Origin: Panopea generosa
Taxonomy: Eukaryota > Mollusca > Bivalvia > Adapedonta > Hiatellidae
DNA length: 64,000 nucleotides
Assembly (NCBI GenBank): GCA_029582155.1
Contig: CM055908.1
Span: forward strand, 16,479,352 to 16,543,351
Direction of reading: 5' to 3'
Each line of letters begins with the position of its first letter. Positions within the stretch are counted from its first letter, which is position 1. A program made the position numbers and the translations under genes. Shown here in pieces: positions 17,548 to 64,000 of this stretch. Under the pieces are notes generated by a model, which worked only from the letters and a program-made list of their open reading frames with translations, made no database searches and was not told the origin of the DNA.

Positions 17548-17598
<51 letters not shown>

Positions 17599-17790: not shown

Positions 17791-17839
17791 TTAGACTTCA
17801 AAAATATATTAAATATATTTTACTCACGAACGCATTTTG

Positions 17840-24815: not shown

Positions 24816-24984
24816 TACGCATTAGATTTTATTTGTAGACAAAACTAAGTTTATTGACAGTGGGAAATTACACGTCGTTAACGTAGCGGATACATGTCTC
24901 GCTTACGTCTAAAAACGGCTACAATATATATATAAACTCAGATTTACTAGTTACTCAAATATGTAATGACATGGCGTCTATAAC

Positions 24985-25190
24985 TTACCATCTGTCAATT
25001 TCATGGTATTTTTATCAATATATGATAACAGTGCATTCAATTCTTACCATCTAGCAGTTTCATGGTAGATTTATTAACATATTATAACAGTGCATTCAAT
25101 TCTTACCATCTAACAGTTTCATGGTATACTTATCAATGTATGATAACAGTTCATTCAATTCTTACTATCTGCAGTTTCGTGTAGTTTAAA
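24985..25190. repeat. Tandem repeat of about 60-64 bp, 3.5 copies
   Basis: Shared blocks: TTACCATCTAGCAGTTTCAT, GGTAGATTTATTAACATAT and AACAGTGCATTCAATTC. Confidence 0.8.
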
Positions 25191-30535: not shown

Positions 30536-30539
30536 TATA

Positions 30540-41800: not shown

Positions 41801-44800
41801 TAGACGCCGGTTGGTTATTTGGCAGAATACGAGCAGGTAAAACAACTGACGCCAGTTGATTATTTGGCTGAATATCAGCAGGTAATACAACTGACACCAG
41901 TAGGTTATTTGGCTGAATATCAGCAGGTAATACAACTGACACCAGTAGGTTATTTGGATGAATATCAGCAGGTAATACAATATACACCAGTTGGTTATTT
42001 GGCAGAATAACAGCAGTTTGGCAGAATATCAGCAGGTAATATAACTGACGCCAGTTGGTTATTTGGATGAATATCAGCAGATAATACAATTGACACCAGT
42101 TGGTTATTTGGCTGAGTATCAACAGGTAATACAATATACGCAAATTGGTTATTTGGCTGAATATCAGCAGGTAATACAACTAACGCCAATTGGTTATTTG
42201 ACTATATATCAGAAGAAAATACAACAGACATCAGTTGGTTATTTGGCTGAATATCAGCAGGAAATACAATAGACGCCAGCAGGTTATTTGGCTTAATATC
42301 AGCAGGTAATACAATAGACACCAGTTGGTTGTTTTTTATGAATATCAGCAGGTATTACAACAGACGCCAGCAGGCTACTTGGCTGAATGTCAGAAGGTAA
42401 TAAAACATACGCCAGTTGATTATTTGGCTGAATATCACAAGGTAAAAGAAATACATTAGTTGTTTTTTTGGGGCTTTAGCTGAATATCAGCAGGTAATAC
42501 AACAGACGCCAGTTGGTTATTTGGCTGAATATCAGCAGGTAGTAAAACATACGCCAGTTGGATATTTGGCTGAATATCAGCAGGTAGTGCAACAGACGCA
42601 AGTTGTATATTTGGCTGAATATCAGCAGGTAATAAAACAGGCGCCAGTTGGTTGTTTGGCTGAATATCAGCATGTTATACAAGATATGCCAGTTGGTTTT
42701 TTGGCTGAATATCAGCAGGTAGTAAAACAGACGCCAGTTAGATATTTAGCTGAATATCAGCAGGTAGTGCAACAGACGCCAGTTGGATATCTGGATGAAT
42801 ATCAGCAGGTAATAAAACAGACGCCAGTTGGTTATTTTGGCTGAATATCACCAGGTAACAGACATACATCAGTTGCTTTCTTGGTTTTAGCTGAATATCA
42901 GCAGGTAATACAACAGACGCCAGTTTGTTATTTGACTGGACATAAGCAGGTAATACAACAAACGCCAGTTGGATATTTGGCTGAAAATCAGCAGGTAACA
43001 CAGCAGACGCCAGTTGGTTATTAGGCTGAATATCAACAGTTAAAGTTGGCTGTTTTGCTTTATATTAGTAGGTAATACAACAGACGCCAGCATGTTATTG
43101 GCTAAATTAGCAGGTAATACAACAAGCGCCAGCAGGTCATTTAGCTAAATATCAGCAGGTATTACAACATATACCAGTTGGTTGTTTTGCTGAATATCAG
43201 CAGGTAATACAACAGACGCCAGTCGGTAATTTGGCTGAAATTAGCATGTAATACAACAGGCGCCAGTTAGGTATTTTGCTGAATATAAGCAGATAATGCA
43301 TCCGACGCCAGTTAGTTGTTTAGCTGAATATCAGCAGGTAATACAACACGCGCCAGTTGGTTATTTTGGCTGAATATCAGCAGGTAATTCAACAGGCGCC
43401 AGTTGGGTATTTGGCTGAATATCAGCAGGTAATACAACATATACCAGTTGGTTATATTTATATATATCAGCAGGTAATAAAACTGACGCCAGTCGGTTAT
43501 TTGAATATCAGCAGGTAATACAACAGGCGCCAGTTGGGTATTTTGCTGAATATCAGCAGGTAATACAACAGACACCAGTTGGATATTTGGCTGAATATCA
43601 GCAGGTAATACAACAGACACCAGTTGGTTGTTTGGCTGAATATCAGCAGGTAATACAACACGCGCCAGTTGGCTATTTTGGCTGAATATCAGTAGGTAAT
43701 TCAACAGGCGCCAGTTGGTTGTTTGGCTGAAATCATCAGGAAATACAACAGACGCCAGTTGGTTATTTGGCTGAAATTATCAGAAAATACAACAGACGCC
43801 AGTTGATTATTTGGCCGAATATCAGCAGGTAATACAACAGACGCTAGTTGTTTTTTTAGCTGAATATCAGCAGGTAATACAACAGACGCCAGTTGGTTGT
43901 TTGGCTGAATATCAGCAGGTAATACAACAGACGCCAGTTGGTTGTTTGGCTGAATATCAGCAGGTAATACAACAGACGCCAGTTGGTTGTTTGGCTGAAT
44001 ATCAGCAGGTAATACAACTGACGCCACTAGGCTATTTGGCTGAAATTATCAGGAAATACAACAGACGCCAGTTGACTATTTGGCTTAATATCAGCAAGGT
44101 AATACAACAGACGCCAGCAGGTTATTTGGCTGAATATAAGCAGGTAATAAAATAGACGCTTGATGGTTATTTGGCTTAAATTAGCAGGTAATACAACAGA
44201 CTCCAGCAGGTTATTTGGCTGAATGTTAGCAAGCAGGTAATACAACAGAAGCCCGTTGGATATTTGGCTGAATATCATCAGGTAATACAACAGACGCCAG
44301 AAGGTTATTCGGCTGAATGTCAAACATATACCAGTTGGTTTTGGTTATCGGGTCAAATAGTTGCTTAAACATATTACAGCTATATGAATGAATATATAGT
44401 TCAGGAAAAGTAAGTAACAGAGAGTCCCAATTATGTTCAAAATAAATGCGACGTACATGTCGAAAGAATAAAATGCAACTGAGAATTATAAGTTGAGGCT
44501 ATACGAATATATTCATAATGGATACTTTTGAGAGACTTATCGAAAATTTGAACTAATGCAATTCTGATCTTGACGTACGGATTAAAGATTATCAGTATTT
44601 ACATTTTTATATAACTAATTGGTTGTGCTATTTTTGGAAAATGTTAAAAAATAATAAATTGATATTTCTTTGTAATTTTATCTGTTATAATCGTCTACCA
44701 ATACCTACGAATAGAACCATTTGTTGCACTTTGTCATATATGGCACTGCATACAAATAATATGATGCCTCTCTTCCATTTACAAGAGTTATTCCCCTTTC

Positions 44801-47800
44801 TACTATTTACAAGAGTTATACCACTTTCTACAATTTACAGGAGTTATGTCTCCATCTACCTTTACAGGAGATATGTCCTTTTTCTACAATTTACAAGAAT
44901 TATACCCCTTTCTACCATTTACAGGAGATATGTCCCTTTCTACCATTTACATTTACCATTTACAGGAGATATGTTACTTTCTACCATTTACAGGAGATAT
45001 GTTACTTTCTACCATTTACAGGAGATATGTCCCTTTCAACCATTTACAAGAGTTATACCCCTTTTTATCATTTACAGGAGATATGTTACTTTCTTCCATT
45101 TACAGGAGATATGTTACTTTCTACCATTTACAGGAGATATGTCCCTTTCAACCATTTACAAGAGTTATACCCCTTTTTATCATTTAAAGGAGTTATACCC
45201 TTTCTACCATTTACAGGAGATATATCTCTTTCTGCCATATACACCAATTATACCCCTTTTCATCATTTACATGAGATATGTTCCTTTCTTCCATTTACAG
45301 GAGATATATCCCTTTCTACCATTTATGGAAGATAAACCCCTTTCTACCATTTACAAGAGTTATTCCCCTTTCTTTTATTAGAGGAGATAAACCCCTTTCT
45401 ACCTTTACAGGTGTTATACCCCTTTCTCCCATTAACACGAGTTATACCCCTTTCTACCATTTACAAGAGTTATGTCCCCGTCTACCATTTACAAGAATTA
45501 TACCCCTTTTTATCATTTACAGGAGATATGTTACTTTCTACAATTTACAGGAGATATGTCCCTTTCAACCATTTACAAGAGCTGTACCCCTTTCTATAAT
45601 TTACAGGAGTTATACCCTTTCTACCATTTACAGAAGATATATCCCTTTCTACCATTTACAGTAATTATGCCTCTTTTCATCATTTACTGAGATATGTTCC
45701 TTTCTTCCATTTACAGGAGATATGTACTTTTCTACCATTTATAGAAGATATACCCATTTCTGCCTTTTACACGAGTTATACCCCTTTCTTTCATTTACAG
45801 GAGTTATGTCCCTGTCTATAATTTACAGGAGTTGTGTCCCTTTAAACCATTTACAGAAGATATGTCCCGTTCTACAATTTACAAGAGTTATACCCTTTCT
45901 GCCATTTACAGGAGATATGTCCTTTTCTTCCATTTACAAGAAGTATACCCCTTTCTACCATTTGTAGGAGTTATGTCCCTTTTAACCATTAACAGGAGTT
46001 ATACCCCTTTCTACTATTTACAGGAGATATGTCCCTGTCTACCATTTACATGAGATATGTTCGTTTCAACCAATTAGAGGAAATATGTCCGTTCTACCAT
46101 TTACAAGAGTTATACCCTTTTGTACTTTTTACAGAAGTAATACCCCTTTCTTCCATTTACATGAGATGTGTCACTATGTACCATTTACAAGAGTTATCCC
46201 TCTTTCTACCATTTACGGGAGTTATGTCCCTGTCTACCATTTACAGGAGATATGTTCCCGTCTACCATTTACAAGAGATATGTCACTTTCTACCATTTAC
46301 AAGAGTTATACCCCTTTTTACCATTTACAGATATATGTCCCCACCAACCATTTACAAGAGTTATACCACTTTCTACCATTTACAGGAGATGTGTTCCTTT
46401 CTACTATTTACAGGAGATATATCCATTTTACCATTTTCAGGAGATATACCCCTTTCTACCATTTACAGGAGTTATGTCCCCGTCTACCATTTACAAGAGT
46501 TATACCCCTTTCTTCCATTTACAGAAGATACGTCCCTTTCTACCATTTACAGGAGATATGTCACTTTCTACCATTTACAGGAAATATGTACCCGTCTACC
46601 ATTTTCAAGAGTAATATCCCCGTCTACCATTTACAAGATTTATACCCCTTTCTTCCATTTACAGGAGATACGTCCTTTTCTACCATTTACAGGAGATATG
46701 TTCCTTTCTACCATTTACAAGAGATACGTCCCTCTCTACCATTTACAGGAGATACGTCCCTTTCTACCATTTACAGGAGATATGTTCTCGTCTACCATTT
46801 ACAATAGTTATACCCTTTCTACTATTTACACTTTCATATTTGCATTATGTCGATAATTTTCAGAAATTTCATCAGGTTTAATTGTTTCTTTAATTGAATA
46901 CAAAGTTTTTGATTACCCTATGTTTTATTATCCTCAGAAAAGGTTTCTATCAAATTCTCGCAGGCGTACACAAAGCTGTAGGAAAAGAACCTTTGCAACA
47001 ACCGCGTTTTGTGAAAAGCGTTGCTGTGGTAAGTATAATAGTTCATAATTATATAATTATGACAAGTTTGACAAGTTAATTTCCATTATTTCCTGAAGGT
47101 CTGAGACCCATGAGTAGTCACATATATATGATTACAAATATTGCGAAAAAAATCATATAAAAATATAAAATAATTACATACAAATTAGTGGAGCCATTTC
47201 GTGAAAAAATGGTGCTATTTTTGAGAAAAGCACCAAACTTGGCACAAACATAGAACAAGATTAGCTGATTATTTTAACGCCGAGTCCCACTTTCAAAACA
47301 ATCTTGGATTTTCCACCAATTTGAAAGTGGATCTCGGTGTTAAAATAATCAGTTAACCTTGTACTATGTTTGTGCCAAGTTTGGTGCTTTTCTAAAAAAA
47401 ACGCACAATTCACTCAATATACAGCACCATATTGCCCCACTAAATATGATAAAGCATTTAATGTTGTCTATTATAAACAACTATGCAGATTGTAATACAG
47501 GCTTTGTTGGACTAGTCTGTGAAATAAGAGTATGTAGGTAAAGTATATATCCATTTGATTATGTACATCAATGAAGGTTATTCAAGTAAATTTGAAAAAA
47601 TAAAAAGGAAAAGCCAAACTTGTATTATTAAATTAACATTTTATTTAAACTTATACTGATGTAAATATTCAGGATAGTGTTTCGCAAACTGCCCTATGGA
47701 AATGACACCATGAATAGCGTATGCAAAGGTGATGATAATTCTATTTATCGCCGCTATCGGTTTCCCATATGGGCGACGCGTCCATAAGAGTATTGGTAAT

Positions 47801-50800
47801 TTTAGTTTTTGAAGGATATTGAAGAGATACAGAAGACCGTTTTTTAGCGTCCCTGGTTCTTTTATATGCCCAGTGTTAAGCACCGATACATGGGACCTCA
47901 GTTTTTAGTATTTTTAGTTGGAGGAGCGGGGGATCAAACATGTGATTACAAGGCGTGTACAGACTGCAGTCACATTTATGTGATGGTTGGGAGGGATATT
48001 ACCAGGGTGTACAGACTGCAGTCACATTTATGTGATGGTTGGGAGGGAGATTACCAGGCGTGTACAGACTGCAGGCACATTTATGTGACGTTTGGGAGTG
48101 AGATTACCAGGCGTGTACAGACTGCAGTCACATTTATGTGATGTTTGGGAGATTACCAGGCGTGTACATACTGCAATCACATTTATGTGATGTTTGGGAG
48201 ATTACCAGGCGTGTACAGACTGCAGTCACATTAATGTGATGGTTGGGAGGGAGATAACCGGGATGTACAGACTGCAGGCATATTTATGTGATGTTTGGGA
48301 GATTACCAGGCGTGTACAGACTGCAGGCACATTTATGTGATGTTTGGGAGATTGCCAGGCGTGTAAAGACTGCAGGTACACTTATGTGATGGTTGGGAGG
48401 GAGATTACCAGGGTGTACAGACTGCAGTCACATTTATGTGATGGTTGGGATTGAGATTACCAGGCGTGTACAGACTGCAGGCATATTTATGTGATGTTTG
48501 GGAGATTACCAGGCGTGTACAGACTGCAGGCACATTTATGTGATGTTTGGGAGATTGCCAGGCGTGTACAGACTGCAGGTACATTTATGTGATGGTTGGG
48601 AGGGAGATTACCAGGGTGTACAGACTGCAGGCACATTTATGTGATGTTTGGGAGATTACCAGGCGTGTACAGACTGCAGTCACAAATATCATGCATATTT
48701 TTTATTATCAATTGTGTTGTTGTTGTTTTTTCTTCTTATTTAAACTTAAAACAGCAGGGGAATACTATTACAGTGTAACAAAAGTATCTAAAACTACACA
48801 AGATAAAATTATAAATTTTGTGTTAATTGAAGAAAATTGTCCATGTCGGTATAAATGTTAAGCCGATATTCTTAGATTTTTTTTTATCTAAAATAGAGGG
48901 GTAACAATGGAGAAAAAAATATTGCAAAAAACTGTAAGCGTTTTTTTTCTTCTCAAAATGACAATAATATCCCTTCTTTGATGCTTGAATCACAAAAATC
49001 TGATGTTGTGTTTACATTAATGGGAAAACTCCAAATGTGCCTCCCAGACAAGTACTTGCAGTTACTTATCTCTGTTTATGTCTTTGGTAATACGAAATAT
49101 ATCAACTTCTGGTCTCGGTGTCATGCTTCTTTACCCATGGTGCTAAATGCACTGACGACAGTTACATACTTTTTGCTTCCTTTTTATTTTAGCATCCGAG
49201 ATACTACATAAAACCGCTTCTTACATTATTGAACGATGTGGCCGTCATGCATCTGGAGACCCCGTTAGTATTTACAAACACTGTCCAGCCCGTAAACCTC
49301 ACAGGCAAGTTGAGTCTTCCTTATTTTCTATTTTGGGTTAAAGATGCATCATCTATAACTTTCTGTTCAGAAAATAATAAAAACTTTAATGAACCACAAA
49401 GACGAGGGTTCAATTCGAAGATAATGGTTGATTACATCCATGTAGTTAATCTTTTTTATGAGAAATATGTTAGTATACAAGTCGCCATTTTCCGTTTTAT
49501 TCGTCAATGTTTTAGCACAACCCCGATACGGGCCAATGAGTGACTTTATCGCGGGCCGCAATTTAATATTTAATTATTTGGTAAACAAAAGTAAAGAATT
49601 TTACACTATATAGACAAATAACAATCGAAGTTGAACAAAATATCCATACTATATGATGTTTTATATTAATGTGCAGTTTTACAGCTAAGATCGAAAACAT
49701 AACGGCGACGTGGTTGAGACCTCTTTATCGTAATTATCAGTAAGCATATAAGCCCCACGGCGCACTGAGTTAAACATATTCAATTAAAAGATAGATAACA
49801 CCAAAGCAATTTATATTGGACTGTATGTACATATTAATTAACTTTTAATTATATTTAATGTAATTTAAGACAAATCGAGAAATGTTCACTGCAGACAACG
49901 AGCTGGTACATAGTTTGGTAAAAATACTACCACACTACTACTAAATTAAAAAAAAAAACTACTACGGTGTCCTATTGGAGTCATCGTGGCATATTTACTA
50001 CATTAAGACAATCAGAAACAATAAAACAACGAAACTGCCACGGTGAAAAGTCGAAACAACGAATTTGACTTTTAATCATCGCTGTTTCGTTGTTTTCGAC
50101 TTTTTCACCATTTTTTTTCTTTTGTTTTTTTTTCCGACTTTATTTCAACTAATACGAATGCCGCGATGGCCCCCATCGGACACCGTATAATCATCTTAAA
50201 TTTAGTCAACTGTCCAAATTAATCTTAAATATATTAAATACAAAAATGTTTCGTATTTGAAATAGTATAATAATATTCTACTCTACGTTCCGTATTAGTT
50301 ATTCTGCAAATATGATATCAAAACAGTTCACCTTTTCACGCACGGAGGACAAAATAAAGAACACGTGTGTAGCTTATTACCATCATATAATAAGTAAATC
50401 TGCTGTTAATCACGTTACAGAAAATAAATACAGTAACAGTAAACGACAAAACTTTCCCCTTTCTTTTTCTAAATGTCTTCTTCTTCTTCTTCTTCTTCTT
50501 CTTCTTCTTCTTCTTTTTTCTTCTTCTTATTATTATCATTAGTATTCTTTTTTTCTTCTTTGTATCATTAAAATGACTATTTTTATTATTGTTTTCTGTA
50601 TTATAATTGCTATTTACATTTCGGTGTATTTGAATTTGCTTGTTATATTATACTCTTTTCACTGTTGCTGTGAATGTTTCTGTAGATGCAGCATTTGACA
50701 AGGTTGCCATGCGAAGTGATCGATGTCTGGTTCATGGCCTTGGTGTTACGTATGAAAGTAAGTTGTAGAATTGTAAATTTTTTATAAACATTTTACAATC

Positions 50801-52853
50801 TTTTTACTTTTCCTCTTTTCCTTTCTACTTGCGGCGTAATTCCATATTCAAAGTGTCTCGAATAATAATAGCGAAAACAACGCTACCAAGTACTTTTAGA
50901 CGTAAGAGAGTGGGGCGAGGTCCGACGTTGATTAGGTAAATCTGTTAATGCATTCCAGTGCGCCAGTAGTATGTCCCAGTAGCTGACATTTCTCCATTTA
51001 CGACTGTTATACCTTAATGTAAAAACATGAAACATGAGCGTGGGAGCGTTTCAATTATTGGGGGGAGGGGGCGGAGACTCCCTACCTGACACACAATTCA
51101 TAGTACCCTAGTGCGTTTACCAGACTGTATCGTAATTCAACTTTTGTTGAAGCGGGTGGTTTGAACATATTTTATTTCTATCTATATTACAGAAATGAAT
51201 GGGGATGGCCCGCAAGATCTTCCAAAATTAGATTCGACATTTCCCCTTTATTTTCATAAATAACGTATAGAAGTAGTTAATTATGCCTGCAATGACTTGA
51301 ATGGTTGCTGGTGAATGGCACAGAGAACTGTTAACAGCATATAATGTAGTGATACTAAGTAACGCATCAGTAATATAGTTAACGTAAATGAGGAATAAAA
51401 ATAGTCCAAGGACAAAGCCTTTTGGAACCCCTGGTGTGATTAGTTTAAGATCAGATACTGCAGAGTAAATGACAAGTTTTTGCTATTTATTTGAGAAGTA
51501 ATTTGATAACCAATTAATAAATTCTCTTTAATTTCGTTTTCACGTAGTTTGAAAAGCAGTCGCTTACGCCACACTCTGTCAAACGCTTTTGAAATAGCAC
51601 AGAACACCATACATGGTTATGATCGAGCGTTTGGCAGATATTATGATATGACTAATTGATGTGATCAGATAAAAGGCCGGACTAATATTTATACAATAGT
51701 TGATTTGTCAAAAAGAAGTCACACAGTTTTAAAACTAGTCTTTCAAGAATCTTTCCACTACATAATATATTTTAAATTGTAATATGAATTATTTAACAAA
51801 TCCTCAATTAAGTCACCTAGAAGTATGTTGCTCTTTGAAATGTCTGTTTTTTTACTTATTTCTATTGAAGTTATTAAAGATAGTTTTGGACGATAAAAGA
51901 CACATATAAGATCCAAACCAAATGGATTAACTATAAAATTCTTCAAGGTCAGTTTTTCCTGAGTGCAATAAAACTATTTTAAATATGCAAGCATTCCACC
52001 TCTATACAGGGACTTCTATGCAATTGAACGCTTACTAAACTGTGACGTCATCCTAAAAATTAGCTAAAGCAACTGACCAATCAATGTGCTCAAATGGAGC
52101 TTTCCCATCAATGCTATTTAACGGACCCAATCAGGAGAGCTGGGTTCGTATTGCAGACTAATGATTGATAGATAAACAATGATTTCCATTGATTGGTCCA
52201 GCGTTAAGCTAAATGTCCAATGCTTATCAAAATAAAATATGAGCTATAAAAGAAATGTTTGTGGAAAATGTCACAGTGTAATTTCCCCCAGATATGATCT
52301 CGCCTTTGCAAAAATAAACAAAATAAAGCAACCATTACGACATAAATATGAAGTTAATATAATTGAGCAATGTTAGGCCTCCAATAATAAAACCTCTGTT
52401 TGGTCACTTTTGCAATATATTACTGACACCAGACATTGTCTAATCTTCCAGAACCAAAGGAAAAAGAGGCGGATGTTATGCAGAAGGTCAGCATAAACAT
52501 AATTCGCGAATCTGTGTGTAAGGCAAAATCAACGAAAAACCGTCTTCGCGTGAACACAAAGATGCACATATGTTCGTTTACTCCGGGCCAATCTGCATGT
52601 TATGTAAGTATCTTATGACGTATGTTTCTTAGTTATCGAACGGTTTTCTCGACTCCTTTGGCGTTAAATCACACAATATGGCGTAATAGATCATCACTGA
52701 TACAAAGAAATGTACTAGAAACGTGGATAACCTCAAATTTTGTGTGTTTTTTTTCGGTTTTAAAACAGATTTTAATGTCGTATTAATCAAGCTTTGTAGT
52801 GTGGATCACCGCCAAAATGACCATACGCAACAGGGACTACTTTGGATTCCTCG

Positions 52854-52893
<40 letters not shown>

Positions 52894-54785
52894 AACAGAA
52901 AAAAAATCAACCAATATTGTGATTATTGCATTATATCATTTATTTTAAAAAAATGTTGTATGATAAAAACCAAACACTACAATAATATCAATCAAATTAG
53001 GAAGGCGAATGGTTGTTTATTAAAATCCGACTATCAGTACTTTTATGTTCTTTGATTGTAATCTAGCAGAAGGGCCCCGTTACCATAGGAAATCAATTAC
53101 AGTTACAAATTAAATATGATATAGGTCAAAACACAATACAGTTACAATGAAAATATGGTATAGATCAATACTCAGTACAGTTACAATGTAAATATGGTAT
53201 AGGTCAATACTCAGTACAGTTACTATGTAAATATGGCATATACCAATAGTCAGTACAGTTACAATGTAAATATGATATAGGTCAATACTCAGTACAACAA
53301 CAATGTAAATATTATATAGGTCAATACTCAGTACAGTTACAATGTAAATATGGTATAGGTCAATACTCAGTATAATGGCAATGTATACATGGTATATGTC
53401 AATTCACAGTACAGTTACAATGTATATATGGTATAAGACAATACTCAGTACAGTTACAATGTATATATGGTATAGGTCAATTCTCAGTACAGTTACACTT
53501 TAACTATGATATAGGTCAATACTCAGTACAGTTACAATGCAAACATTGTATAGGTCAATACTCAGAACAGTTACAATATAAATATATTATGGTATAGGTC
53601 AATACTCAGTACAGTTACACTGTACGTATGATATAGGGCACCATTTCAACACAGGTATGAAGTTGGTTCATTTCACATGTTTAAACGCATTAAGATCAGT
53701 AGCTTATTAGTTGTATTAAACAGTAAATAGTTGGGTTTAAAATTATATTGTTGTCAGATCAAAACCATTACAATTTTCGAGAATGTCTTATCATTTTAGG
53801 GCAATATCCACTGTACTTTGATAGAACTTTTGAACCGGTATATAAATTAACAAATAACAACAGTGAGAAACTGTCAAAAATACGACAAAATGTTTTCATT
53901 ATTTTATAGATGTTACAACGAGGCTTGACATTTATTTTCACTTGATATAGATAGAGACTTCATTCTTTTATTTTTTGTATTTAAAAAGAGTAAAAAAATA
54001 ACTGAATGTGATGGTACATATTTAAAATTTCTAGTTTTCTTTTCGAAAAATGACGATATTTTAAAATTGACAAGTACGAGCTTTTTTGCAATGTACGCCA
54101 ACATCTGACGTAACGTCATATATTTACCTACAAGAAAAACGTAAAAAAATATATTTAAAGTGAATTTTTTAAACAAACAATGCGCGGAGATAATAACAGG
54201 TGCAATTTCTGTACTTTAAATTGTCCATTTCTTCGTAACTTTTTGAAATTTTGGGCGTTAAACACGCATTAAAAAATAGAAAATGTTTGCGATGTTTGTG
54301 ATGAAGGCGGTTATCGAAGATCTATCATTTGATTGAGATGACTGAGGAAAAAAAATCCATCATGAGTTCATCCATTTAGGATAGAGAAACCTCACCCCCT
54401 GGGTCATAAATACATTCAGGGAACTCGGCAGGGCCTCGTCTATGCATGTAGTTTCGACCCCTCGGGTGACATATTTCTATCCCACACGGATACTCATGAT
54501 GTATTCTTATAATCTTCTTCCCCCCTTCTAGGATCTTCCTATTGATACAATGTTGCTTTAGTTGGTGTGATAGTTGTCCTTAGAAATGTAACCCAACATA
54601 ATTTATGACCAATTATAATTTAGGGTGACAGCGGCGGAGCTGTTGGTTGCTATGACAAGAATAACGTTTTCCGGCAAGTGGGCATTGTTTCCTTTGGACC
54701 TGGTCATAAACTATGCAGAAACGGCTACTCCGTAGATACAAGGGTGTCAAGTTACTTGGAATGGATCCATGCTAACAAAATATAG
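38796..54785 (+). CDS. Secreted trypsin-fold (S1A) serine protease, chymotrypsin-like pocket, 271 aa, 7 coding exons
   Basis: The model joins 38796-38835, 41103-41289, 46938-47028, 49193-49304, 50686-50757, 52452-52603 and 54624-54785. Phases agree throughout and the sum is 816 nt. Signal peptide [15 protein letters not shown]; activation site [11 protein letters not shown] (residue 24/25). Catalytic triad His68 (LTAAHC), Asp121 ([10 protein letters not shown]) and Ser221 (GDSGGA). The Cys pairs expected for positions 42-58, 136-201, 168-182 and 191-220 of chymotrypsin numbering are present. The residue at position 189 is Ser215 (GQSACYGDSGG), and SFGPG follows, suggesting a chymotrypsin-like rather than trypsin-like pocket. 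The usual GWG near position 141 is HGLG. Secreted zymogen; digestion or immunity are inferred roles. Confidence 0.92.
39060..40105 (-). pseudogene. Dead mariner-type transposase (protease intron 1)
   Basis: On the minus strand, starting near 40100: [40 protein letters not shown] (helix-turn-helix), [37 protein letters not shown] (DETW codons at 39738-39749, first catalytic Asp), [20 protein letters not shown] (second Asp) and [17 protein letters not shown]-rich insert separates VIQVDHPP from LSPCDFF, where YSPD would be expected. Several shifts and stops occur. It is related to SETMAR-like and other mariner transposases. Terminal inverted repeats were not identified. Confidence 0.75.
40106..41102. 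other. Rest of protease intron 1, nothing recognised
   Basis: AT-rich intron with no coding frame or clear repeat, ending in the exon 2 acceptor. Confidence 0.5.
41103..41289 (+). CDS. Protease exon 2 (activation site, His of the triad)
   Basis: The acceptor TTTCACCGCAG ends at 41102. It encodes [11 protein letters not shown], then [36 protein letters not shown]. Donor AATCAAAG|GTAAAA, phase 2. The ATG at 41108 is internal, because exon 1 supplies the signal peptide. Confidence 0.92.
41745..44340. repeat. 2.6-kb minisatellite, 45-bp unit (protease intron 2)
   Basis: Roughly 55 units built from TTGGCTGAATATCAGCAGGT plus AATACAACAGACGCCAGTTG plus GTTAT, with scattered indels. Near 43860-44030 four successive units are almost identical, marking recent amplification; the left end is more diverged. 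A 45-bp period gives long open frames on both strands ([15 protein letters not shown] and [15 protein letters not shown] types), but indels break them. Confidence 0.92.
44770..46830. repeat. 2.1-kb minisatellite, 28-bp unit (protease intron 2)
   Basis: About 70 units of TTTCTACCATTTACAGGAG plus ATATGTCCC, with alternative endings GTTATACCCC. Two unit subtypes (GGAGATATGTCC and AGAGTTATACCC) alternate, and a longer block of several units is itself repeated near 44960-45180. It lies about 430 bp after the 45-bp array and just over 100 bp before exon 3. Many units contain TTTACAG, which looks like a 3' splice site. Confidence 0.92.
46938..47028 (+). CDS. Protease exon 3
   Basis: The acceptor TTATCCTCAG ends at 46937. 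It encodes [18 protein letters not shown] and [12 protein letters not shown], the strand pair and loop between the His and Asp segments. Donor GCTGTG|GTAAGT, phase 0. Confidence 0.85.
47186..47442. mobile_element. Fold-back MITE, family M3 (protease intron 3)
   Basis: About 257 bp, ends TAGTGG and CCACTA. A long inverted repeat pairs GCACCAAACTTGGCACAAAC and ATTATTTTAACGCCGAG with GTTTGTGCCAAGTTTGGTGC and CTCGGTGTTAAAATAAT. The left end also has a small hairpin (CACCATTT-like). There is no coding capacity. Confidence 0.75.
47940..48690. repeat. Minisatellite, about 49-53-bp unit (protease intron 3)
   Basis: About 15 units with GTGTACAGACTGCAGGCACA and TTTATGTGATGTTTGGGA plus GATTACCAGGC. Longer units carry an extra GGGA. 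The internal CACATTTATGTG is a short inverted repeat. Confidence 0.9.
49193..49304 (+). CDS. Protease exon 4 (Asp of the triad, GC donor)
   Basis: The acceptor TTTTATTTTAG ends at 49192. It encodes [20 protein letters not shown] and [17 protein letters not shown]. The donor is CACAG|GCAAGT, a canonical GC-AG intron; using it keeps frame with exon 5. Confidence 0.88.
49370..49695 (-). repeat. Dispersed repeat in the left arm (related to 33835-34140)
   Basis: The reverse complement contains GATAAAGTCACTCATTGGCC, GTTGTGCTAAAACATTGACG and ATTTCTCATAAA, as at 33835-34140. The mirror copy is at 63605-63930. Confidence 0.6.
49963..50187. mobile_element. Fold-back MITE M4 (left arm)
   Basis: 225 bp with terminal inverted repeats of about 30 bp beginning TACGGTGTCC and ending GGACACCGTA. 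An inner hairpin pairs GGTGAAAAGTCGAAACAACG with CGTTGTTTTCGACTTTTTCACC-type sequence. The mirror copy is at 63109-63333 with the same length. Confidence 0.75.
50477..50516. repeat. (CTT)n microsatellite (left arm)
   Basis: About 13 CTT units; mirrored as (GAA)n at 62773-62822. It explains the poly-Leu and poly-Lys open frames here. Confidence 0.9.
50686..50757 (+). CDS. Protease exon 5
   Basis: The acceptor TGTTTCTGTAG ends at 50685 and the donor TATGAAA|GTAAGT is at 50758. It encodes [20 protein letters not shown] and VTYE, with the Cys at position 136. An identical copy is on the minus strand at 62539-62610. Confidence 0.85.
51225..51960 (-). pseudogene. LINE family A remnant (left arm, protease intron 5)
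   Basis: Mirror of 61336-62071. On the minus strand [15 protein letters not shown] and [13 protein letters not shown] (endonuclease-type motifs) precede RT fragments. It is broken by many stops and was inserted in intron 5 before the inverted duplication, as both arms carry it. Confidence 0.7.
52452..52603 (+). CDS. Protease exon 6 (S1 pocket)
   Basis: The acceptor AATCTTCCAG ends at 52451 and the donor TGTTAT|GTAAGT is at 52604. It encodes [34 protein letters not shown] and [13 protein letters not shown]. It is open throughout, unlike the frameshifted mirror copy. Confidence 0.88.
52858..52890. repeat. (TA)n microsatellite (left arm)
   Basis: About 16 TA units. The mirrored tract at 60419-60433 has about 7, the largest length difference between the arms. 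Confidence 0.9.
53085..53645. repeat. Minisatellite, about 39-bp unit (protease intron 6)
   Basis: About 14 units of TACAGTTACAATGTAAATAT plus GGTATAGGTCAATACTCAG. The mirror array at 59660-60220 shows the same unit variants in the same order, so copy number was preserved since duplication. Confidence 0.9.
54624..54785 (+). CDS. Protease exon 7 (catalytic Ser, stop)
   Basis: The acceptor ATAATTTAG ends at 54623. It encodes [40 protein letters not shown] and [13 protein letters not shown], then TAG. An identical copy is at 58524-58685 on the minus strand. Confidence 0.93.
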   Translation, partial: GDSGGAVGCYDKNNVFRQVGIVSFGPGHKLCRNGYSVDTRVSSYLEWIHANKI

Positions 54786-54969
54786 ACCGTGGTGTGTACA
54801 TTTTGGACGGACCGACATAGATGCAAGGATGTCAAACTACCTGAATTTGATATATGCACTGTGGCGTGCACCTTTTGATGTGACAGACGCATCTGCGTTC
54901 TCACATGTGTACTTTATATAGAAATAAGGGTATGAAAAAAAAACTCAACAAAATTAGCATGCGTTATAA

Positions 54970-54975
54970 AATAAA
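54970..54975 (+). promoter_or_regulatory. Poly(A) signal of the protease gene
   Basis: AATAAA about 185 bases after the stop codon. It lies inside the duplicated arm, so the inverted copy carries it too (about 58333-58338). Confidence 0.6.
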
Positions 54976-56192
54976 CTTGTAAACCCAGGCCGATTCGAGT
55001 TTGTTTTTTGTTCATATATACTCACCATTTTTTGCATGGGGTTAAACACCCTTTTTTAACACATTTCATGTTATATATGGCATATATATGGTTAACAAAA
55101 ATGACAGGGTCGTCCTATTAATTTTACTAACATCTGCAATAAACCGAGTTTATGCTAGGGTATGCTAATTATGCTGTATTTATATAATTATCAACAAATT
55201 ACATTATTAAATCTCTTTGCTCAATTAATATTCTTCGCGTATTTAGCATTATTGTTATTTAGTCGCTGGTGTTGGTCTTTAAGAATCAAGTGATATAAAT
55301 TGATTATTCCAATTCTTTTATCAATTTTCTTTCTATGACACTGAATTATTTCATAACAAACACATTAAAATTTGTGCGAAAAAAATAAACCATTAAATAA
55401 TGTTTTGGATTATAAAAGAAATGTACTTGAATTTTAAGGTTTATGAAGGTTCTTTAGTTAAAATATAAAGTTAAAATAAATCTATGCTTAAGAATATAAA
55501 TAAAATACATAATAAAAAACATACTTTAAACTACACATCAATGCAATATCACCATGTGTTTATAAATATTTCGGACTGACCAACATTTACATAAAGACGG
55601 CTGACATAGCGACATATTTGCTGTATTCAATTGGGTACAATAAAACGCTGTATTGGGTACAGTAGTACGCTGAGTTGAGTACACAGAACATAAATCAGAA
55701 TTACATTTTATCTCATTTTCAAATCAAAATGTAAGCAAGATGCAATTATCATATTTTTTATATCTAAAAATCATCGTAAAGAGAATTTTATTTACAATAA
55801 ACGTATACGTTGTAATATGTTGGCAAACAATCTCAACTAAGGTTTAAACGACTTTCATAGTGACCGCAAACGTGATTTCAGTAATTTCTATATAGAACAT
55901 ATAAGGAAAATATATGCTGTTATAAAATTAAAAAAGGAAGCAAGAAGACGTTAACTTATTTTAATTTTTATTGTATCATAATATGGTTATATATTTAACT
56001 TAATGACTACACGTTGTAATAGGTTAGCAATTTAATAATGAAACAGTTCTAACGATAAAATTAAAATTCTCCTATATGTTTCTATGTCAACCAAATATCA
56101 CGGTTTAGCCAGGTAAGTAATAAAAACAGCCGATATCAAGGGGGATAACTTCTCTCGATAAGCCAGCGGAATGTCTGAAAAAGTCCCACATG

Positions 56193-56300
56193 ATTTACTT
56201 GGTATTGGCTTGGTATTGACTTGGTAATGACTTGATATTGTCTTGATATTGACATAATATTGACTTCATATTTTGACTTTATATTGACTTGATATTGAAT
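56193..56300. repeat. Short tandem array, CTTGATATTGA-like unit
   Basis: About nine units of GACTTGATATTG and variants (GGCTTGGTATTG, GACATAATATTG). Confidence 0.8.
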
Positions 56301-56524
56301 TACAAACATTTTTATCTTTGTTTAACATGGTTAAACACCAGTTCAGTATATGCTGTGCTGTATTATAGTGTGGGGCCATGGGTTATACATAACCTCCGTT
56401 TTATTTGCTCAGGAAGGCCTCCAAACCCCTACCACGATAATTATGGTAAAAGGTTAGTGACATCGCGCCAACCACCTGATATAAAGGATATTGTTCCGGT
56501 ATTCACACACTCCCACATTTATAA

Positions 56525-57310
56525 TATATAAAATCCATGCCTTCCAACCGCCATAATGTATACAATCTAAGCTTTCCCACGTCATAATGTATACAATCCA
56601 TGCCCCCCTCCCCCCCACCCCCCATCGTCATAATGTATACAATCTATTCCTTCAAACCGTGATAATGTATACAATCCATGCCCCACATCGTCATAATGTA
56701 TACAATCCATGCCTTCCAACCGTCATAATGTATACAATCCATGCCCCCCATCGTCATAATGTATACAATCCATGCCCCCCCCCATTCGTCATAATGTATA
56801 CAATATATTCCTTCCAACCGTAATAATGTATACAAGCCATGCCCCCCATCGTCATAATGTATACAATCCATACCCCCCCCCCCCCCCCCCCATCGTCATA
56901 ATGTTTACAATCTATTCCTTCCAACCGTCATAATGTATACAATCCATGCCCCCCATCGTTATAATGTATACAATCTATTCCTTCCAACCGTCATAATGTA
57001 TACAATCCATGCCCCCCCCCACCCCCCCCCCATCGTCATAATGTTTACAATCTATTCCTTCCAACCGTCATAATGTATACAATCTATTCCTTCCAACCGT
57101 CATAACGTATACAATCCATGCCCTCCCATCGTCAGAATGTATATAGTCCATGCCCTCCAATCGTCATAATGTATACAATCCATGCCTTCTCGCCGTCATA
57201 TTGTATACAATATATACCTTCCAACCGTCATAATAGATATAATTCATGCCCTCCCATATATATAACGTATACAATCCATGCCCTCACACCGTCATAATGT
57301 ATGTAGACAT
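56525..57310. repeat. Minisatellite with C-rich runs (palindrome spacer)
   Basis: About 25 units of CATAATGTATACAATCCATG plus a variable C-run plus ATCGT, or CATAATGTATACAATCTATT plus CCTTCCAACCGT. C-runs reach 10 or more at several sites (56765, 56872, 57010). The two subtypes alternate irregularly. Confidence 0.9.
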
Positions 57311-57434
57311 ATTGGATACTGTTCCCAAACGCTTCTATCAAATGTGCCATTTGATACGAAAATTAAATTAATCGAAGTCTTTGAGGTGTAAACCCACCAT
57401 TGACTTTTGTTTTTTATTCTATAGTAGGCTTGTA

Positions 57435-57545
57435 ATTCATTCAGAGACCCAATGAAAGAAGTGAAACTTATATTTTACTGTTTGTAAACCTCTGCACCAC
57501 CAAATATGATGAGAAAAGTAGGTGTCATCTGTCATATAAAAGACA
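57435..57545. repeat. Dispersed repeat, inverted relative to 8270-8365
   Basis: AATGAAAGAAGTGAAACTTA and AAACCTCTGCACCACCAAAT are reverse complements of blocks in gene 1 intron 2. Confidence 0.5.
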
Positions 57546-57628
57546 AAAAATGACAACATACAATCTCCAAATTATATTTTATTTTTGATTTTGTTTCTGT
57601 TTGCTCATATTCAAGACATGGGAAAAAA

Positions 57629-57690
57629 GAGATTCGAGGAATAAAAAGTAGTCCCTGTTGCGTATGAACATATTGGCGGTGACAAACAAT
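57629..57690. repeat. Third copy of a protease intron 6 block
   Basis: AAAGTAGTCCCTGTTGCGTA and ATTGGCGGTGA match the right arm near 60450-60485 in the same orientation, and the left arm near 52800-52850 inverted. It lies outside both arms. Confidence 0.6.
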
Positions 57691-58029
57691 GCAAAGGATA
57701 AGTAGGCTGTGCCTATGCTATAAAGCCTGGCTAAACTGGGCTTATCTGTGGTCGAATATTCTGAGGCTCTGTCTCAATATCGCGTGATTATCACCGCCAT
57801 GGTCGTTATATTTGGATCAGCTTGATCCAACAAATTATGTGAAAATGTTTACCACTTTCTTGCAAACACGTTATATTGTACAATATAATTTACTTTCATT
57901 CACATACATGTAACTGCAAGCGCTATTCATGAGCAGAAAATAGTTTTCGCAAACCATCGTTGAAATATTTAGTTTTCATTTATTCTGTTTCCGACGACAA
58001 CACTCTAAAGATATATCGTCAGCAAAAGT

Positions 58030-58280
58030 AGTGATGCTCTAATCGGAAATGGCGAGCAGGGGTCCTCCACGGCCAAATGTTAAAAGGGCCTTCTCAAGAC
58101 AATTCACCTTTCACCGCCAATGTCGTATGTTTGACTCCCGCTCGCTCCAAAAAACTTTATGTGAGCAAGTTTGCGAGTTACTTGCGGAGAACGGTGGTTC
58201 TACTACCACCAAATAAAACTGAGTATGCCATATATAACATGAAATGTGTTAAAAAAGGGTGTTTAACCCCATGCAAAAAA
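58030..58280 (+). mobile_element. tRNA-derived SINE, family 1, spanning the palindrome junction
   Basis: A decayed head (CCACGGCCAAATGTTAAAAG, box A region; CGTATGTTTGACTCCCGC, box B region), body GTGAGCAAGTTTGCGAGTTA, then GAGTATGCCATATATAACAT and GGTGTTTAACCCC. Only its last part (from 58224) is duplicated in the left arm (55010-55084). Confidence 0.8.
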
Positions 58281-58523
58281 TGGTGAGTATATATGAACAA
58301 AAAACAAACTCGAATCGGCCTGGGTTTACAAGTTTATTTTATAACGCATGATAATTTTGTTGAGTTTTTTTTTTCATACCCTTATTTCTATATAAAGTAC
58401 ACATGTGAGAACGCAGATGCGTCTGTCACATCAAAAGGTGCACGCCACAGTGCATATATCAAATTCAGGTAGTTTGACATCCTTGCATCTATGTCGGTCC
58501 GTCCAAAATGTACACACCACGGT

Positions 58524-58685
58524 CTATATTTTGTTAGCATGGATCCATTCCAAGTAACTTGACACCCTTGTATCTACGGAGTAGCCGTTTCTGCATAGTT
58601 TATGACCAGGTCCAAAGGAAACAATGCCCACTTGCCGGAAAACGTTATTCTTGTCATAGCAACCAACAGCTCCGCCGCTGTCACC
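58524..58685 (-). CDS. Copy of protease exon 7 (intact, part of a broken gene)
   Basis: 162 nt identical to 54624-54785 in reverse complement, including GDSGGA and the stop. Confidence 0.9.
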   Translation of the reverse strand, partial: GDSGGAVGCYDKNNVFRQVGIVSFGPGHKLCRNGYSVDTRVSSYLEWIHANKI

Positions 58686-59659
58686 CTAAATTATAATTGG
58701 TCATAAATTATGTTGGGTTACATTTCTAAGGACAACTATCACACCAACTAAAAGCAACATTGTATCAATAGGAAGATCCTAGAAGGGGGGAAGAAGATTA
58801 TAAGAATACATCATGAGTATCCGTGTGGGATAGAAATATGTCACCCGAGGGGTCGAAACTACATGCATAGACGAGGCCCTGCCGAGTTCCCTGAATGTAT
58901 TTATGACCCAGGGGGTGAGGTTTCTCTATCCTAAATGGATGAACTCATGATGGATTTTTTTTTCTCATTCATCTCAATCAAATGATAGATCTTCGATAAC
59001 CGCCTTCATCACAAACATCGCAAACATTTTCTATTTTTTAATGCGTGTTTAACGCCCAAAATTTCAAAAAGTTACGAAGAAATGGACAATTTAAAGTACA
59101 GAAATTGCACCTGTTATTATCTCCGCGCATTGTTTGTTTAAAAAATTCACTTTAAATATATTTTTTTACGTTTTTCTTGTAGGTAAATATATGACGTTAC
59201 GTCAGATGTTGGCGTACATTGCAAAAAAGCTCGTACTTGTCAATTTTAAAATATCGTCATTTTTCGAAAAGAAAACTAGAAATTTTAAATATGTACCATC
59301 ACATTCAGTTATTTTTTAATCTTTTTAAATACAAAAAATAAAAGAATGAAGTCTCTATCTATATCAAGTGAAAATAAATGTCAAGCCTCGTTGTAACATC
59401 TATAAAATAATGAAAACATTTTGTCGTATTTTTGACAGTTTCTCACTGTTGTTATTTGTTAATTTATATACCGGTTCAAAAGTTCTATCAAAGTACAGTG
59501 GATATTGCCCTAAAATGATAAGACATTCTCGAAAATTGTAATGGTTTTGATCTGACAACAATATAATTTTAAACCCAACTATTTACTGTTTAATACAACA
59601 AATAAGCTACTGATCTTAATGCGTTTAAACATGTGAAATGAACCAACTACATACCTGTG

Positions 59660-60220
59660 TTGAAATGGTGCCCTATATCATACGTACAGTGTAACTGTAC
59701 TGAGTATTGACCTATACCATAATATATTTATATTGTAACTGTTCTGAGTATTGACCTATACAATGTTTGCATTGTAACTGTACTGAGTATTGACCTATAT
59801 CATAGTTAAAGTGTAACTGTACTGAGAATTGACCTATACCATATATACATTGTAACTGTACTGAGTATTGTCTTATACCATATATACATTGTAACTGTAC
59901 TGTGAATTGACATATACCATGTATACATTGCCATTATACTGAGTATTGACCTATACCATATTTACATTGTAACTGTACTGAGTATTGACCTATATAATAT
60001 TTACATTGTTGTTGTACTGAGTATTGACCTATATCATATTTACATTGTAACTGTACTGACTATTGGTATATGCCATATTTACATAGTAACTGTACTGAGT
60101 ATTGACCTATACCATATTTACATTGTAACTGTACTGAGTATTGATCTATACCATATTTTCATTGTAACTGTATTGTGGTTTGACCTATATCACATTTAAT
60201 TTGTAACTGTAATTGATTTC
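59660..60220. repeat. Minisatellite, mirror of 53085-53645
   Basis: Reverse-complement units (CTGAGTATTGACCTATACCA, ATTTACATTGTAACTGTA) in the same order as the left-arm array. Confidence 0.9.
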
Positions 60221-60688
60221 CTATAGTAACGGGGCCCTTCTGCTAGATTACAATCAAAGAACATAAAAGTACTGATAGTCGGATTTTAATAAACAACCAT
60301 TCGCCTTCCTAATTTGATTGATATTATTGTAGTGTTTGGTTTTTATCATACAACATTTTTTTAAAATAAATGATATAATGCAATAATCACAATATTGGTT
60401 GATTTTTTTTCTGTTGGCATATATATATATATAAAATCGAGGAATCCAAAGTAGTCCCTGTTGCGTATGGTCATTTTGGCGGTGATCCACACTACAAAGC
60501 TTGATTAATACGACATTAAAATCTGTTTTAAAACCGAAAAAAAAACACACAAACTTTGAGGTTATCCACGTTTCTAGTACGTTTCTTTGTATCAGTGATG
60601 ATCTATTACGCCATATTGTGTGATTTAACGCCAAAGGAGTCGAGAAAACCGTTCGATAACTAAGAAACATACGTCACAAGATACTTAC

Positions 60689-60841
60689 ATAACATGCAGA
60701 TTGGCCCGGAGTAAACGAACATATGTGCATCTTTGTGTTCACGCGAAGACGGTTTTTCGTTGATTTTGCCTTACACACAGATTTCGCGAATTATGTTTAT
60801 GCTGACCTTCTGCATAACATCCGCCTCTTTTTCCTTTGGTT
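60689..60841 (-). pseudogene. Copy of protease exon 6 with +1 frameshift
   Basis: One extra A in the coding strand after CGCGA makes TGT GTG TAA in frame. Splice sites are intact. Confidence 0.85.
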
Positions 60842-61335
60842 CTGGAAGATTAGACAATGTCTGGTGTCAGTAATATATTGCAAAAGTGACCAAACAGAGG
60901 TTTTATTATTGGAGGCCTAACATTGCTCAATTATATTAACTTCATATTTATGTCGTAATGGTTGCTTTATTTTGTTTATTTTTGCAAAGGCGAGATCATA
61001 TCTGGGGGAAATTACACTGTGACATTTTCCACAAACATTTCTTTTATAGCTCATATTTTATTTTGATAAGCATTGGACATTTAGCTTAACGCTGGACCAA
61101 TCAATGGAAATCATTGTTTATCTATCAATCATTAGTCTGCAATACGAACCCAGCTCTCCTGATTGGGTCCGTTAAATAGCATTGATGGGAAAGCTCCATT
61201 TGAGCACAGTTGATTGGTCAGTTGCTTTAGCTAATTGTTAGGATGACGTCACAGTTTAGTAAGCGTTCAATTGCATAGAAGTCCCTGTATAGAGGTGGAA
61301 TGCTTGCATATTTAAAATAGTTTTATTGCACTCAG

Positions 61336-62071
61336 GAAAAACTGACCTTGAAGAATTTTATAGTTAATCCATTTGGTTTGGATCTTATATGTGTCTTTTA
61401 TCGTCCAAAACTATCTTTAATAACTTCAATAGAAATAAGTAAAAAAACCAGACATTTCAAAGAGCAACATACTTCTAGGTGACTTAATTGAGGATTTGTT
61501 AAATAATTCATATTACAATTTAAAATATATTATGTAGTGGAAAGATTCTTGAAAGACTAGTTTTAAAACTGTGTGACTTCTTTTTGACAAATCAACTATT
61601 GTATAAATATTAGTCCGGCCTTTTATCTGATCACATCAATTAGTCATATCATAATATCTGCCAAACGCTCGATCATAACCATGTATGGTGTTCTGTGCTA
61701 TTTCAAAAGCGTTTGACAGAGTGTGGCGTAAGCGACTGCTTTTCAAACTACGTGAAAACGAAATTAAAGAGAATTTATTAATTGGTTATCAAATTACTTC
61801 TCAAATAAATAGCAAAAACTTGTCATTTACTCTGCAGTATCTGATCTTAAACTAATCACACCAGGGGTTCCAAAAGGCTTTGTCCTTGGACTATTTTTAT
61901 TCCTCATTTACGTTAACTATATTACTGATGCGTTACTTAGTATCACTACATTATATGCTGTTAACAGTTCTCTGTGCCATTCACCAGCAACCATTCAAGT
62001 CATTGCAGGCATAATTAACTACTTCTATACGTTATTTATGAAAATAAAGGGGAAATGTCGAATCTAATGTT
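61336..62071 (+). pseudogene. LINE family A remnant (right arm)
   Basis: Reads [20 protein letters not shown], then RT pieces similar to 18850-19320: [14 protein letters not shown], [17 protein letters not shown], and [17 protein letters not shown] frame-broken text, ending in a 3' UTR with AATCTAATGTTGG and GAAATAAAATATG. It is the same family as 17840-20065, with internal deletions. Confidence 0.7.
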
Positions 62072-62538
62072 GGAAGATCTTGCGGGCCATCCCCATTCAT
62101 TTCTGTAATATAGATAGAAATAAAATATGTTCAAACCACCCGCTTCAACAAAAGTTGAATTACGATACAGTCTGGTAAACGCACTAGGGTACTATGAATT
62201 GTGGGTCAGGTAGGGAGTCTCCGCCCCCTCCCCCCAATAATTGAAACGCTCCCACGCTCATGTTTCATGTTTTTACATTAAGGTATAACAGTCGTAAATG
62301 GAGAAATGTCAGCTACTGGGACATACTACTGGCGCACTGGAATGCATTAACAGATTTACCTAATCAACGTCGGACCTCGCCCCACTCTCTTACGTCTAAA
62401 AGTACTTGGTAGCGTTGTTTTCGCTATTATTATTCGAGACACTTTGAATATGGAATTACGCCGCAAGTAGAAAGGAAAAGAGGAAAAGTAAAAAAGATTG
62501 TAAAATGTTTATAAAAAATTTACAATTCTACAACTTAC

Positions 62539-62610
62539 TTTCATACGTAACACCAAGGCCATGAACCAGACATCGATCACTTCGCATGGCAACCTTGTCA
62601 AATGCTGCAT
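62539..62610 (-). CDS. Copy of protease exon 5 (intact, part of a broken gene)
   Basis: 72 nt identical to 50686-50757 in reverse complement, with both splice sites. Confidence 0.88.
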
Positions 62611-62772
62611 CTACAGAAACATTCACAGCAACAGTGAAAAGAGTATAATATAACAAGCAAATTCAAATACACCGAAATGTAAATAGCAATTATAATACAG
62701 AAAACAATAATAAAAATAGTCATTTTAATGATACAAAGAAGAAAAAAAGAATACTAATGATAATAATAAGAA

Positions 62773-62822
62773 GAAGAAAAAAGAAGAAGAAGAAGAAGAA
62801 GAAGAAGAAGAAGAAGAAGACA
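62773..62822. repeat. (GAA)n microsatellite (right arm)
   Basis: Mirror of the (CTT)n tract in the left arm. Confidence 0.9.
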
Positions 62823-63108
62823 TTTAGAAAAAGAAAGGGGAAAGTTTTGTCGTTTACTGTTACTGTATTTATTTTCTGTAACGTGATTAACAGCAGATTT
62901 ACTTATTATATGATGGTAATAAGCTACACACGTGTTCTTTATTTTGTCCTCCGTGCGTGAAAAGGTGAACTGTTTTGATATCATATTTGCAGAATAACTA
63001 ATACGGAACGTAGAGTAGAATATTATTATACTATTTCAAATACGAAACATTTTTGTATTTAATATATTTAAGATTAATTTGGACAGTTGACTAAATTTAA
63101 GATGATTA

Positions 63109-63333
63109 TACGGTGTCCGATGGGGGCCATCGCGGCATTCGTATTAGTTGAAATAAAGTCGGAAAAAAAAACAAAAGAAAAAAAATGGTGAAAAAGTCGA
63201 AAACAACGAAACAGCGATGATTAAAAGTCAAATTCGTTGTTTCGACTTTTCACCGTGGCAGTTTCGTTGTTTTATTGTTTCTGATTGTCTTAATGTAGTA
63301 AATATGCCACGATGACTCCAATAGGACACCGTA
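63109..63333. mobile_element. Fold-back MITE M4 (right arm)
   Basis: Mirror of 49963-50187, 225 bp, ends TACGGTGTCC and GGACACCGTA. Confidence 0.75.
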
Positions 63334-64000
63334 GTAGTTTTTTTTTTAATTTAGTAGTAGTGTGGTAGTATTTTTACCAAACTATGTACCAGCTCGTTGT
63401 CTGCAGTGTACATTTCTCGATTTGTCTTAAATTACATTAAATATAATTAAAAGTTAATTAATATGTACATACAGTCCAATATAAATTGCTTTGGTGTTAT
63501 CTATCTTTTAATTGAATATGTTTAACTCAGTGCGCCGTGGGGCTTATATGCTTACTGATAATTACGATAAAGAGGTCTCAACCACGTCGCCGTTATGTTT
63601 TCGATCTTAGCTGTAAAACTGCACATTAATATAAAACATCATATAGTATGGATATTTTGTTCAACTTCGATTGTTATTTGTCTATATAGTGTAAAATTCT
63701 TTACTTTTGTTTACCAAATAATTAAATATTAAATTGCGGCCCGCGATAAAGTCACTCATTGGCCCGTATCGGGGTTGTGCTAAAACATTGACGAATAAAA
63801 CGGAAAATGACGACTTGTATACTAACATATTTCTCATAAATAAGATTAACTACATGGATGTAATCAACCATTATCTTCGAATTGAACCCTCGTCTTTGTG
63901 GTTCATTAAAGTTTTTATTATTTTCTGAACAGAAAGTTATAGATGATGCATCTTTAACCCGAAATAGAAAATAAGGAAGACTCAACTTGCCTGTGAGGTT

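Follow-up and report, generated by a model that had tools for sequence, protein, structure and literature searches.

A palindrome with a protease gene in each arm

The 64,000-nucleotide stretch of Panopea generosa DNA considered here (the window, C15:16479352-16543351) carries a trypsin-like serine protease gene and part of a large palindrome that holds a copy of this gene in each half. Positions are those of the window, negative numbers and numbers above 64000 denoting flanking sequence. The window was aligned to itself by BLAST, the alignment was repeated with flanking sequence added on both sides, and genome searches covered the 1.474-Gb assembly (39 contigs). In the window alone, 49295-55084 aligns with the opposite strand at 64000-58224 (99.2% identity across 5,797 columns), an inverted match far above chance expectation and exactly where the original prediction had placed arms of at least 5.8 kb around a 3.1-kb spacer. 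With the flanks included, the match extends to 17794 in the left arm (copy M) and to 90527 in the right arm (copy R), which reaches 26.5 kb past the window; the whole imperfect palindrome thus measures 73 kb and is larger in the assembly than had been noted (Table 1). Two long arms of opposite orientation around a spacer of 3,139 bp make it an inverted segmental duplication. Position 49295 is the partner of window base 64000 and hence not a biological edge, and the outer flank of R is unlike that of M, with a defined breakpoint.

An arm match without interruption had been described; this holds for the inner 5.8 kb, where the longest gap among those listed (at least 8 bp) is 18 bp, but not farther out. 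As predicted, a 39-bp minisatellite (53098-53637 and 59672-60211) and a 3-bp microsatellite (50476-50528 and 62768-62820) occupy matching positions in the two arms, and the dispersed repeat recognized in the arm does recur, 38 of its 40 scored matches lying elsewhere in the genome (79-85% identity).

In each arm, an S1 trypsin-like gene is represented by five recognized exons (a, b, c, d and g), among them those with the His, Asp and Ser motifs. The idea that the arms carry only half a protease gene was therefore abandoned, as further exons lie in the outer arm at 41104 and 46938. A PF00089 match together with the catalytic triad motifs identifies an S1 serine protease; in the M copy, exons a and g score above the Pfam cut-off and exon c below it (18.0 versus 20.6). 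The gene resembles other members of PF00089 in its His, Asp and Ser exons and its IVGG activation site, and departs from them in that one internal exon is possibly truncated and one was not found here. All five exons are open in both arms, and between M and R five bases differ in exon a, an in-frame 3-base indel is found in exon c, and exons b, d and g show no difference. The nearest relative elsewhere is a paralog on contig C3 (70% identity over 54 residues of exon a); in the 20 kb around it only exons a-c were matched, and no GDSG or GDSA motif occurs after base 8,000. An apparent GC donor follows exon c (49305-49306) and is also present in this paralog. Neither the exon preceding the Ser exon g nor a signal exon was found in the arms, and a reverse-transcriptase-like frame without a Pfam match, on the opposite strand from 51231, overlaps possible exon e. 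Judged from the sequence, the protease copies may be pseudogenes. A protein search yielded 1,219 relatives; among the best 120, those that carry a name include no mollusc. The best PDB sequence matches, which include coagulation factor IX and enteropeptidase, say only that this is an S1 protease and nothing narrower. Three minisatellites, with units of about 45, 28 and 49 bp, lie between the protease exons (41769-44322, 44777-46830 and 47944-48684) and are unequal in length between the arms.

A composite spacer within a cluster of copies

The spacer (55085-58223) is composite and consists of a 10-bp junction insert, a 2.2-kb fragment of a dispersed repeat and a 0.92-kb continuation of the duplicated unit past the arm end. 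A plain unique loop was rejected, because both parts have copies elsewhere. At 55085, M parts from R and from Q, a further copy of the core, via TATATGGTTA, which partly repeats the neighbouring bases; M stops at 55084, and R keeps the 0.92 kb of continuation, as Q does. At the 57305 junction the possible homology amounts to a single base. The closest copy found of the repeat (116617-118846) lies about 60 kb away in opposite orientation and differs from the spacer fragment at 10 of 1,091 sites in the unique part, plus 18 gap bases, and at 37 of 2,199 sites over the whole insert; the next copy compared is 91% identical over the fragment. The first 1.1 kb of the fragment occurs in at least 39 further genomic places (40 scored including itself), the nearest at 98% on the same contig and another at 97%. 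The dispersed repeat runs past both fragment ends in other copies (116191-120341 against another copy), and a complete transposon insertion was rejected on this ground.

Related rearrangements are clustered within about 200 kb, in the order L+, M+, R-, Q'-, Q+ with other sequence between them. Unit M spans -25 to 55084, and R (58224-90527) is its inverted counterpart over 17794-55084. The direct copy L ends at M 35729, before the recognized protease exons, so that the part of M in the window common with L is 1-35729. About 80 kb downstream, Q' and Q form a pair of oppositely oriented core copies, themselves inside the spacer of an enclosing palindrome. A genome search with 53640-55084 recovered three full copies and one partial copy (96-100%), all in this stretch of C15; among the 40 scored candidates, the other long matches belong to one internal dispersed repeat (74-80%), and the remainder are shorter fragments. 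Opposite-strand pairs of this internal repeat occur at C28:534481 and 549725 (about 15 kb apart) and at C25:1412905 and 1441731 (about 29 kb), with equal or near-equal scores, hinting at more inverted duplications in the assembly.

Uneven divergence among the copies

Divergence between M and R was counted over 14,460 aligned sites from which tandem arrays had been removed beforehand (in the 500-bp arm profile, the first window includes 10 bases past the arm). The 218 mismatches are distributed very unevenly (28 bins of 500 sites; dispersion chi-square 186.5, 27 degrees of freedom, P=9e-26), and divergence increases with distance from the centre (Spearman 0.76, P=3e-6). In successive bins from the centre to 21 kb it is 0.42, 0.36, 0.21, 0.80, 0.42 (a bin of 240 sites), 1.80, 1.28, 4.26 and 3.33%. 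The inner 6 kb is thus 0.2-0.4% diverged, against 3.3-4.3% for the stretch at 17-21 kb, and about 6-7% per kb is reached at M 28-34 kb. One age for the whole palindrome is rejected by this unevenness. The inner 6 kb (17 of 5,332 sites) also differs from the comparison of the spacer insert with its nearest copy (10 of 1,091), at marginal significance (Fisher P=0.017). In the enclosing palindrome, taken for comparison, mismatches (163 in 8,588 sites, 1.9%) are spread much more evenly, and heterogeneity is weak when tandem repeats are kept in (chi-square 27.9, 16 degrees of freedom, P=0.03).

Between L and M, divergence to the left of 16 kb is 2.9-5.6% per kb, except in three bins that contain tandem arrays (5, 6 and 12 kb; 13-15%); it falls in a tract of 11 kb (Table 1), and is 1.8-4.8% per kb beyond 27 kb. 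Among 11,401 sites compared three ways, 10,952 are identical, 279 show the LM pattern, 107 MR and 60 LR, and three differ in all copies. These patterns are clustered: for each of two scores, all 2,000 shuffles fell short of what was observed, a significance that is overstated because the shuffles treat sites as independent. MR sites predominate at 27-28 kb (39 versus 10 and 11) and are also the most numerous at 35 kb (19 versus 12 and 7). As the relations among L, M and R fit no single tree, sequence has probably moved between copies, and graded divergence together with mosaic three-copy relations probably reflects gene conversion.

Table 1. Coordinates of the palindrome, its related copies, the protease exons and the inserts.
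Feature	Position	Strand or orientation	Description	Basis
Left arm, copy M	17794-55084	+	37,291 bp; partner 90527-58224 (32,304 bp)	Self-BLAST with flanks
Right arm, copy R, part in window	58224-64000	-	Runs on to 90527	Self-BLAST with flanks
Junction insert TATATGGTTA	55085-55094		10 bp; TATATGG copies bases just upstream	Comparison of M, R, Q and nearest-repeat junctions
Spacer part 1, dispersed-repeat fragment	55095-57305	+	96.4% to 118846-116617, opposite strand; ends internal to repeat	
Spacer part 2, unit continuation past arm end	57305-58223	-	Shared with Q (140086-141005), which differs at 4 of 919 sites	
Direct copy L	-44718 to -10039	+	Matches M -25 to 35729 with gaps	Sequence comparison
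Core copy Q'	134778-137702	Inverted	Matches M 54151-51212	
Core copy Q	137709-141005	Direct	Matches M 52708-55084 plus 0.92-kb continuation	
Enclosing palindrome	126114-134782 / 145667-154382	Inverted arms	Arms about 8.7 kb, 96.0% identity; Q'/Q inside its spacer	
L-M low-divergence tract	16000-26999	+	0.2-1.0% per kb; limits to nearest kb	
Protease exon a	41104-41289	+	NPR-IVGG activation site, His TAAHC; in R at 72630-72445	Pfam PF00089, E 1.4e-13
Protease exon b	46938-47028	+		Similarity to C3 paralog; splice sites read from sequence
Protease exon c	49193-49304	+	Asp NDVAV	Pfam below cut-off; C3 paralog similarity
Protease exon d, proposed	50686-50757	+		Reading frame and splice sites only
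Possible exon e	51193-51263	+	Reaches stop, no donor seen	
Protease exon g	54624-54785	+	Ser GDSGG, stop; identical in both arms	Pfam, E 8.6e-07
4.1-kb insert with reverse-transcriptase frames	28879-32977	+	Shared by M and L, missing from R	
Insert with inverted ends beside TTAA	25878-26365		Filled in M and L; R shows apparent empty site	

Elsewhere in the window, a long CT-rich degenerate minisatellite occupies 11872-12750 (GC skew -0.34 over 12-14 kb), and a scan of the window against Rfam at gathering scores gave no match. Downstream, two open frames (104854-105624 and 124266-124961) are alike at their starts and are possibly another local gene pair.

Origin of the palindrome and its relation to known systems

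The explanation that we favour, with somewhat better than even confidence, is a genuine inverted segmental duplication in a locally unstable cluster of about 200 kb, which arose by fold-back or template switching and was later modified by gene conversion. A broken or stalled end would have folded back or switched template, with a repeat roughly 60 kb distant serving as template for about 2.2 kb before the unit itself was copied in reverse. Gene conversion would later have moved sequence between the two facing arms, and probably Q as well, most often near the centre. This would leave two protease copies arranged tail to tail, nearly identical in their 3' parts and more divergent in their 5' parts. 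The composite spacer, the repeat ends internal to the element, the single base of possible homology and the short local repeat at 55085 fit such an origin without proving it. The retained 0.92 kb (57305-58223) is native spacer sequence adjoining an arm, the remnant expected of a fold-back loop; of the two marks looked for at a fold-back junction, inverted homology of at least 2 bp or an insertion, only the insertion (10 bp plus 2.2 kb) is present.

Several observations weigh against this account. Divergence is not monotonic over the full arm and drops to 1.1-3.4% per kb at M 17.8-28 kb, and sites are linked, so the P values overstate certainty. In the core, M and Q are the closest pair over 52708-54097 without tandem repeats (2 of 785 sites, versus 6 of 787 for M-R and 4 of 785 for R-Q), and R and Q over 54098-55084 (1 of 989, versus 3 of 987 for M-R and 4 of 987 for M-Q); the distance of Q from M or R is about that between M and R. 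Because M-R is not the closest core pair, Q may have taken part in the exchange, or the core as a whole may be of recent origin. Much of the outer arm (up to 7% per kb) is more diverged than the spacer insert is from its nearest copy (0.9% in the unique part). Insert and outer arms therefore do not appear to date from a single event, and the insert may have come in when the centre was repaired at some time after the first duplication. Which repeat copy served as donor for the first 1.1 kb is uncertain, given identities of 98% versus 97%. Furthermore, the distribution of the 4.1-kb and TTAA inserts suggests that R split off before L and M did, unless the inserts were copied between L and M, and the inner arm has no L copy for a direct test of this order. 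All of the evidence comes from one assembly, one individual and one species, by sequence alone.

The structure could be real, with the low divergence at its centre arising because the inner 6-8 kb (in M, R, Q and Q') was duplicated again or replaced recently, and not by ongoing arm-to-arm conversion; we regard this as rather doubtful. Differences of 0.1-0.8% among M, R and Q in the core, a distance of Q from either arm about equal to that between the arms, and the start at M 51212 of the sequence shared with Q or Q' would all agree with it; however, M-R divergence does not exceed 0.8% over about the first 8 kb from the centre, past the part present in Q or Q', and over 51212-52707 Q' lies 1.2-1.3% from both arms when M and R differ at only 3 of 1,479 sites. 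The M-R patches at 27 and 35 kb would also be left unexplained. More speculative still is a self-propagating nest of palindromes, in which the 4-kb core (M 51.2-55.1 kb) would repeatedly seed inverted duplications (M/R and Q'/Q) and the copies would convert along a gradient of distance from the centre, maybe on an ordinary autosome of an invertebrate; large converting palindromes have been described mostly on sex chromosomes.

Misassembly, by mis-joining of haplotypes or from fold-back reads, is unlikely. Divergence of this size could be allelic, and a run of N that begins at 163501, the first in the sequence and 105 kb from the spacer, and lasts to the end of the flanking sequence at 164000 is a possible scaffold gap; yet the 204,000 bases from -50000 to 154000 contain no N, where a scaffold join would be expected to leave a gap, and the strongly uneven divergence, the distinct outer flank of R with its breakpoint and the several further copies and junctions all argue for a real structure. 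A read with a missed adapter would yield near-identical arms without a long spacer, which likewise counts against an artefact. A real junction at which M and R, from different homologous chromosomes, were joined in reverse, the uneven divergence being old allelic variation, is less probable again: it would accommodate the patchy divergence and the 4.1-kb and TTAA insert differences, which resemble haplotype differences, and late joining would fit a 0.9% insert beside more diverged arms, but it does not account for the increase in divergence away from the centre over 21 kb, and L, a separate local copy, shows comparable divergence. Thus, of the two readings originally offered, a real tail-to-tail duplication, perhaps gene-converted, is the better supported and mis-joined haplotypes are weakened, given the graded and mosaic divergence, a composite spacer with its own breakpoints, the lack of N and the copies in several places and orientations.

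A genuine duplication of this kind shows a route to a tail-to-tail gene copy whose 3' half is nearly identical and whose 5' half diverges. Moreover, a long templated insert and a readable gradient, beside a more even palindrome, would make it possible to separate the study of how a palindrome forms from that of later exchange. Among the papers listed on bivalves, none describes such a palindrome, as judged by title or the start of the abstract, and a description may nevertheless exist.

Human fold-back inverted duplications have disomic spacers of 766-70,466 bp (median 3,428) and, in some cases, junction insertions of 1-372 bp (PMC3907307); the inverted copies, kilobase-scale spacer (3.1 kb here), retained loop sequence and junction insertion of the present palindrome are similar, whereas its insert is 2.2 kb, its arms are aged and diverged, and it is not known to accompany a terminal deletion. 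On the willow W chromosome, adjacent palindromes lie within about 200 kb, four arms share a 20-kb sequence and conversion affects part of the arms (PMC7023750). Neighbouring palindromes in about 200 kb, one sequence common to four arms and, probably, conversion limited to part of the arms are found here too, but the shared sequence is about 4 kb. Primate X-chromosome palindromes, with a median arm of 37 kb and arm identity above 99% (median 99.953%; PMC8981503), are comparable in arm length (37 and 32 kb here) and in exchange between arms, which is probable here, whereas in the present case arm identity exceeds 99% consistently, tandem repeats aside, only over about the inner 8 kb. As in the ODIRA inverted triplication (PMC10766186), inverted copies lie locally around palindromic junctions, but the order L+, M+, R-, Q'-, Q+, interspersed with other sequence, is not that of a simple inverted triplication. 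The palindrome is a further case of known structures, namely multi-palindrome clusters and, probably, fold-back duplications and converting palindromes; it is set apart by its long junction insert and by a core that recurs in more than one palindrome.

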